The notes beneath the pieces were generated by a model that worked only from the letters and a program-made list of their open reading frames with translations, had not been told where the DNA came from and ran no database searches. 64,000 nt of DNA. Source: Enhydrobacter aerosaccus. Its GTDB lineage: Bacteria > Pseudomonadota > Alphaproteobacteria > Reyranellales > Reyranellaceae. This document shows positions 2,101 through 17,701 of this stretch, one piece after another. The stretch is taken from NCBI GenBank assembly GCA_903832005.1, contig CAIKZO010000015.1, positions 1-64,000 of the forward strand, given 5' to 3'. Position numbers and translations under genes: made by a program. The first letter of the stretch is position 1; every line of letters starts with the position of its first letter.

Positions 2101-3069
2101 CTAGAAGTGGACGTAGCCTTTGCGCGTTACGCGGGCCTCACGTCCGCCGATCGTGAGACGAACGCCCTCGCCCTTCGCAAATCGGCCGATTTGCGTGACC
2201 GCAACACCGGCGGAACGCGCCGCCGCGTGCAGTGCAGCACGTTTGCGCGGCGGCACGGCGATCACGAGTTCGTAATCGTCGCCGCCGCCCAGCACGCTGC
2301 TCCACAGCGCGGGCTTCGCCTCCACCCCGCGACGCGCCGCCCGCGACAGCGGCACACGATCGCGCTCGATGTGAAGCCCAAGCCGCGACGCGTCGGCGAT
2401 ATGGCCCGCGTCGGCCAGCAATCCATCGGACACATCGGCCGTCGCATGGGCGATGCCGACGAGAAGCGGGCCGAGCGTCGTGCGCGGCTGCGGCACGCGA
2501 TAGCGCCGCTCGAGGGCCGCGCTGTCGAGACCGCCGCGCGCGGCCAGAAGGCCGAGCGCACCGTCGCCGATCGTGCCGGTCACCCACAATTCGTCGCCGG
2601 CGCGCGCCCCTGCCCGCCCCAGCCCCTTGCCGCGCGCCACTTTGCCGAACGCCGTGATCGAGATCGTCGTCGGCCCTGGCGTCGAGGTCGTGTCGCCGCC
2701 TGAAAGTGCCACGCGATAAAGCTTCTGATCGGCGGCAAGGCCGCGCGCGAAGCCCGCGATCCAGCGTTCGGTCCAACTCGTGTTGAGCGACAAAGCCACC
2801 TGATAGGTGAATGGTACCGCGCCGCCGGCGGCGAGATCGGACAGGCAGACACGCAATGCTTTCGCTGCGATCCGCTCGGGCTTTTCGTCAGCGAGGAAAT
2901 GCACGCCCGACACGACCGTGTCGGTCTTCACCACGAGATCGTGGCGGCCGTCGGCGACGATGAAAGCATTATCGCTCTTGAGGCCCCGCGCGCCGGCGAA
3001 ACCCTTGGCCAGCGGCGCGAAGTAGCGGGCGATCAGTTCGAACTCGCCGATGCGCCCGCGGCGGGCCAT
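2101..3069 (-). CDS. thiL: Thiamine-monophosphate kinase
   Basis: Phosphorylates thiamine monophosphate to the cofactor thiamine diphosphate using ATP (cytoplasmic). The 322-aa protein has the PurM/AIR-synthase-like fold signatures: GEFELIARYF at the N-terminus, the metal-binding VVKTDTVVSGVHF near residue 46, LSDLAAGGAVP near 76, and GGDTTSTPGPTTISITAFG near 120-140 that binds Mg-nucleotide. A later ADVSDGL supplies further metal ligands. It follows nusB after 5 bp, the usual alphaproteobacterial neighbourhood. Length and motifs are normal. Confidence 0.95.
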   Translation of the reverse strand: MARRGRIGEFELIARYFAPLAKGFAGARGLKSDNAFIVADGRHDLVVKTDTVVSGVHFLADEKPERIAAKALRVCLSDLAAGGAVPFTYQVALSLNTSWTERWIAGFARGLAADQKLYRVALSGGDTTSTPGPTTISITAFGKVARGKGLGRAGARAGDELWVTGTIGDGALGLLAARGGLDSAALERRYRVPQPRTTLGPLLVGIAHATADVSDGLLADAGHIADASRLGLHIERDRVPLSRAARRGVEAKPALWSSVLGGGDDYELVIAVPPRKRAALHAAARSAGVAVTQIGRFAKGEGVRLTIGGREARVTRKGYVHF

Positions 3070-17182: not shown

Positions 17183-17701
17183 ATGCGCATCTTCAACCCG
17201 TCCTTCGGTCTTTCGGCTACCTCGGCCGAGAAGGTCACGCTCAAGCCGGTCAACTGGGCGACCGACGCGATCGCGCTGATGTCGAACTCCAAGCCGAACG
17301 CGCGGGAGCTGCTCGAAGGCATCCGCGCCAAGCTGGGCGCCCATCGCCAAATCGACAACATCAAGTTCATGGCCAAGAACAGCGCCAGCCAGCCGGCCCC
17401 GAAGGAGCTGATCCAGGACGTCGCCAAGAACTACAGGGCGGCCATTCTAGCCTTAGGGGATTGAGGAAGCTGTTCATCGTGGAGTTTCCACGACAGCCTC
17501 GAACTCGAGAAGCTCGGCATCACCGCTTTCGTGATCGCCACTGAGACATTCAAGCCGCTGGTCCTGGCCCAGGCGAAAGCCCGCAAGGTCGAACCGCGTC
17601 TGATCGTAGTGAAGCACCCCGTTGGCGGCCTCAACGCCGAGGAACTTCGGGAACGCATCGAAGCAGCGACCAAGGGATTGACCGAGGCTACGAGCAAATG
17701 A
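17183..17701 (+). CDS. UGSC-motif selenoprotein (selenocysteine encoded by in-frame TGA at 17462-17464)
   Basis: Read conventionally the frame stops at codon 94 after AAILALGD. The codon is TGA and the next codons read Gly-Ser-Cys-Ser-Ser-Trp-Ser-Phe-His-Asp, giving U-G-S-C, followed by SLELEKLGITAFVIATETF and LIVVKHPVGGLNAEELRERI. The frame stays open for 78 more codons and ends at 17701 as an ATGA overlap with the next gene, so the C-terminal half is real. The total is 172 aa with Sec94. A SECIS-like hairpin lies 5-33 nt after the TGA. AGGAGA precedes the ATG at 17183. The U-G-x-C plus following helix and strand resembles the Sec site of GrdB-type reductases. The family is known to me only as UGSC-containing proteins of undefined reaction. 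Confidence 0.9.
17469..17497 (+). promoter_or_regulatory. Bacterial SECIS element
   Basis: Stem 1 pairs GCTGT (17469-17473) with ACAGC (17493-17497). Stem 2 pairs CGTGGA (17478-17483) with TCCACG (17487-17492). The bulge TCAT is only on the 5' side, and the apical loop is GTT. The loop starts 20 nt after the TGA and begins with G, matching the known requirements of bacterial SECIS hairpins bound by SelB (apical stem, G in the loop, 16-37 nt from the UGA). All 11 pairs are Watson-Crick. Confidence 0.88.

Follow-up and report, generated by a model that had tools for sequence, protein, structure and literature searches.

An in-frame TGA in a UGSC-family gene of Enhydrobacter aerosaccus: evidence for selenocysteine and for a partner protein family

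Within the first 64,000 nucleotides of contig CAIKZO010000015.1 of Enhydrobacter aerosaccus (GCA_903832005.1; hereafter the window), a gene begins at an ATG at 17183 and meets a TGA codon at 17462-17464. Does this TGA end a protein of 93 residues, or is it read as selenocysteine (Sec), and if so, in what kind of system does the product act? An initial annotation, made from the sequence alone, favoured a selenoprotein with Sec at position 94. The arrangement that it described is borne out by the window sequence: Gly-Ser-Cys follows the TGA, the frame remains open for 78 more codons up to a terminal TGA at 17699-17701, and this stop shares an ATGA (17698-17701) with the start of the next gene. 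The coding part thus spans 17183-17698 and yields 172 aa across the in-frame TGA, whereas standard gene calling would end at residue 93 and miss the active site. The features of the locus are listed in Table 1.

Table 1. Coordinates of the UGSC gene, its recoding elements and the adjoining operon genes in the window.
Feature	Position	Strand	Basis
Thioredoxin-reductase-like (TrxR-like) FAD/NAD(P) flavoprotein, 288 aa	16281..17147	+	Pyr_redox_2, 98 bits; TrxR model, 173 bits, below cutoff
Gene of the UGSC-family selenoprotein (172 aa, Sec at 94), stop included	17183..17701	+	PF24696 and NF041046 matches; alignment (n=19)
TGA codon, read as Sec94	17462..17464	+	TGA in 71/76 loci, Cys codon in 5
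Bacterial SECIS hairpin	17469..17497	+	Core stem CGTGG/CCACG, 17478-17482 with 17488-17492; loop AGTTT
Partner P2, 345 aa	17698..18735	+	Start overlaps UGSC stop as ATGA; beside UGSC loci, fused in one subfamily
Paralogous partner P3, 323 aa	18732..19703	+	Start overlaps P2 stop as ATGA

Reading of the in-frame TGA

If the TGA were a true stop, the product would be a 93-aa protein, and the downstream frame would be either what remains of a decayed sequence or a small ORF in its own right. Two observations are compatible with this. At 65% GC a run of 78 codons stays open by chance in about 24% of cases, so the open frame alone is little proof of readthrough, and the folding energy of the hairpin behind the TGA is by itself unremarkable (z -1.26 and -0.32). 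The Sec reading is instead derived from homology, from purifying selection after the TGA and from conservation of the hairpin.

With Cys in place of the TGA, the translation matches the Pfam UGSC family (PF24696) over positions 2-167 of 172, at 128 bits against a cutoff of 25, and scores 121 bits with NCBIfam NF041046, "UGSC family (seleno)protein", which is 4 bits below a cutoff of 125 that is of the stricter equivalog type. The profile match covers both flanks of the TGA, and these two matches show that the initial annotation had chosen the right family name. In an alignment of 19 UGSC members, D93-U94-G95-S96-C97 are invariant, as are H103, D104, F123, H145 and P146. Most of these positions (G95-C97, H103-D104, F123 and H145-P146) lie in the downstream half, where a true stop would not lead one to expect them. 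UGGC or UGAC replaces UGSC in nine loci (L144, L152, L159 and L176 among them), so the Ser of the motif is not essential.

A broader set of 80 loci from many phyla was obtained by searching for P2 relatives across named genomes and then applying the UGSC profile. UGSC lies on the same strand as P2 in 76 of these loci, with TGA at the Sec position in 71 and a Cys codon (TGC/TGT) in five; in the remaining four, which have no UGSC gene, the P2 match is near the end of the DNA examined and a neighbour could fall outside. The Cys-codon forms include the haloarchaea Natronomonas and Natrialba and two sphingomonad genomes. Among UGSC members aligned from within the genus, the TGA is always at the identical position. 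Thus all relatives examined carry TGA or a Cys codon at position 94 and continue into the downstream half, and none ends at this TGA. Additionally, in all six orthologs of the same operon type, conservation is higher past the TGA than before it. For instance, the nearest ortholog is 98.7% identical after the TGA and 80.6% before it, with dN of 0.011 and 0.139, respectively. Stronger purifying selection on the downstream half than on the upstream half argues against a decayed remnant.

The SECIS hairpin claimed in the initial annotation is likewise real, and because its folding energy is not unusual, the evidence for it is comparative. Its core (17478-17492) starts 13 nt past the TGA and carries a GU in the loop at 17484-17485. 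In a comparison of 22 sequences, 98% of the stem is paired, and the closing pair swaps between C-G and G-C, which represents covariation. In the set of 80 loci, every one of the 71 TGA genes has five of five stem pairs and a GU at that loop position, whereas none of the five Cys genes has the GU loop and four of them have a broken pair (Fisher p 5e-8 for 71:0 versus 0:5, uncorrected for relatedness). Rfam scans for SECIS matched no family. A hairpin that is universal in the TGA forms only is not expected if the TGA is a true stop, and that reading, which we consider highly improbable, appears already refuted by comparison of sequences.

Still less probable, to the point of being negligible, is that the TGA reflects a sequencing error or that a nonsense mutation recently hit a Cys codon. 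TGA is one base away from TGC and TGT, and the 6.05 Mb assembly is in 175 contigs and about 90% complete, but orthologs and paralogs in 36 genomes of the genus have the same TGA, as do 71 diverse loci, and independent genomes seem already to have refuted this explanation. The window's genome has three UGSC genes besides this one, each of the four with one TGA, and all 36 same-genus genomes have two to five UGSC genes each, nearly all with exactly one TGA.

The genome also encodes the complete selenocysteine machinery. The genes selA (560 bits) and selB (462 bits) and tRNA-Sec (71 bits) lie on the minus strand of contig C128 in the order given, and selD (425 bits) is on contig C140, all over their cutoffs. 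A weak selD-like match in the window itself (2317-2874, minus strand; 34.8 bits, under cutoff) probably belongs to a relative of the PurM/HypE/ThiL type and not to SelD. Among other genomes, selB is over cutoff in two checked high-completeness genomes with Sec-form UGSC (G015 and G368), and no selB over cutoff was found in two genomes with the CGSC form (G200 and G334). G048, which is 77% complete, has Sec-form UGSC genes, yet no selB over cutoff was found in it. The two findings that the initial annotation would have taken as refutation, a genome without selB/selC and relatives that end at this TGA, were both looked for, and neither was made. Overall, homology, purifying selection past the TGA, the conserved hairpin and a complete sel set support Sec94, and the reading of the TGA as Sec is about as firm as computation can make it.

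The UGSC operon and its partner family

UGSC was already a named selenoprotein family in 2008, if not before (PMC2398784), and is included in reviews from 2022 and 2026 (PMC9312934, PMC13188914), the latter of which counts it among families whose functions are largely uncharacterised. The novelty implied by the initial annotation was therefore too high, and the gene described here is a further member of an already described family. A literature search did not find the phrase "UGSC family", nor a relevant paper connecting Reyranella with selenocysteine. The window gene shares with the family (PF24696, NF041046; PMC2398784, PMC13188914) its sequence, the UGSC motif, the Sec codon and the lack of a known function. 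However, its ortholog group has UGSCSSW rather than UGSCxxC and falls just under the NCBIfam cutoff, and its operon carries two P2-type partners and a flavoprotein.

What the locus adds is the partner family, P2. Neither P2 nor P3 matched a Pfam or NCBIfam family. P3 is 33% identical to P2 and is kept in the operon of relatives, and the best named matches of P2 are in Reyranella genomes, which makes Reyranella, or something very close to it, the most likely source of the window. P2 relatives adjoin UGSC in 19 of the 19 loci examined in detail; in operons like that of the window they follow UGSC, and in most other loci they precede it. Furthermore, in a sample of 398 genomes from the phylum, exactly the same five contain UGSC and P2, and in one subfamily the two form one polypeptide. 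The partnership is apparently obligate, and comparative evidence indicates that it, like the Sec reading, is established. An orphan selenoprotein family may thus be viewed as a testable two-component system, with UGSC beside or fused to one uncharacterised family. Whether UGSC and P2 are the two subunits, both obligate, of a selenoenzyme system not yet described, one that ranges from haloarchaea, with Cys, to Proteobacteria and Chloroflexota, with Sec, and acts on a small catabolic substrate, is a question on which we consider the chances evenly balanced.

Two of the fusions differ in their motifs. The gene at L061:5984-7786 (minus strand) keeps the TGA, in GCUGSCTP, and that at L058:7692-9386 (plus strand) lacks a TGA and shows a degenerate motif, HCSTC (CSTC); a TrxR-like flavoprotein adjoins both. 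A fusion of UGSC with "Unknown_1" was mentioned in 2008 (PMC2398784). Two cysteines of P2, C81 and C179, are near-invariant (23/25). Presumably, the "Unknown_1" of that fusion is P2, which we consider likely. Three P2 relatives (L062:7342-8790, L067:8175-9629 and L070:6415-7854) have an N-terminal extension that is thioredoxin-like in look and contains a CxxC motif (CQTC/CHTC), which suggests a redox role for this partner.

In the window, the operon runs in the order flavoprotein, UGSC, P2, P3. The flavoprotein, directly upstream of UGSC, has a CxxC motif (CASC, residues 132-135) and is kept upstream in the ortholog operons. Such a dedicated CxxC flavoprotein is an addition in some UGSC operons; of the 80 loci, eight proved to have it, each with an operon of the window's own type, and so it may not be the general reductant of UGSC. 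On the flanks of the operon are divergent ABC transporter genes of the branched-chain type and genes of the amidohydrolase, amidase and DHDPS-like kinds; most of these neighbours are retained in same-genus ortholog loci.

Predicted fold and possible chemistry

The AlphaFold2 model of UGSC is a regular alternating beta-alpha domain (pLDDT 86, pTM 0.82), in which a strand at 86-92 precedes Sec94 and is followed by a helix at 95-110 and a strand at 114-120; the helix-strand order anticipated after the TGA is thus seen in the model. A thioredoxin-like fold was guessed for the family in 2008 (PMC2398784), and the PDB matches of the model argue against it. UGSC has a U-x-x-C redox-type motif in common with thioredoxin-fold selenoproteins but is predicted to be flavodoxin/Rossmann-like, and no thioredoxin was present among its top 50 PDB matches. 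Foldseek gave only generic alpha/beta, flavodoxin/Rossmann-like PDB matches with TM up to about 0.56, which assign no function. For the P2 model (pLDDT 84) the PDB gave no match of confidence; its top Foldseek hits, class I fumarate hydratases followed by cyclic amide hydrolases, had E-values of about 1e-3 or worse, TM below about 0.3 and rmsd of 13-18, and were not trusted. PDB sequence searches with UGSC, P2 and a PrdB-like profile gave nothing meaningful.

In the proposed mechanism, SelB and tRNA-Sec would insert Sec at the UGA as directed by the hairpin just 3' of it. In the predicted fold, Sec94 would open the helix after strand 3, with Cys97 one turn on, as in a typical U-x-x-C redox site, and the two residues could form a selenenylsulfide/selenol pair. 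The upstream CxxC flavoprotein may pass electrons from NAD(P)H to the Sec94-Cys97 selenenylsulfide. Jointly with P2 and P3, its apparently obligate partners, the reduced selenol may then act on a small molecule, and the nearby genes for a branched-chain-type ABC transporter and for amidase/amidohydrolase enzymes probably serve to import or process that molecule. We are highly confident in the outline, i.e. a bona fide UGSC-family selenoprotein with SECIS-directed Sec insertion and P2 as its partner. The electron path and the substrate themselves are suggested tentatively, being somewhat more likely to need revision than to stand as drawn.

A different chemistry would apply if UGSC attacked its substrate directly, as the PrdB/GrdB subunits of proline and glycine reductase do, rather than being a disulfide-type redox carrier. 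Both types have U-x-x-C at a strand-helix turn, hhalign sets Sec on Sec across 79 columns, and the transporter and amidase genes of the operons suggest a catabolic substrate. However, the PrdB/GrdB profile (PF07355) matched none of the 19 UGSC members, and UGSC has no significant profile similarity to it. The hhalign probability is just 5%, so homology is unsupported. GrdB/PrdB-like chemistry is thus possible, unsupported by profile comparison, and on the whole we consider it unlikely. UGSC is most likely a selenol redox subunit that would act together with P2 on a small molecule.

A PrdB/GrdB-like selenoprotein gene is present in the same genome, on contig C64 (L084:784-1962, minus strand). 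It encodes 393 aa with TGA as codon 157 in a VUPAC motif, and the TGA is kept in most of the genus relatives that have a match. Adjoining it on the minus strand, at about 1965-2620 of L084, is a gene for a peroxiredoxin-like protein with an in-frame TGA in GAWUPYC, which is likely to be another selenoprotein.
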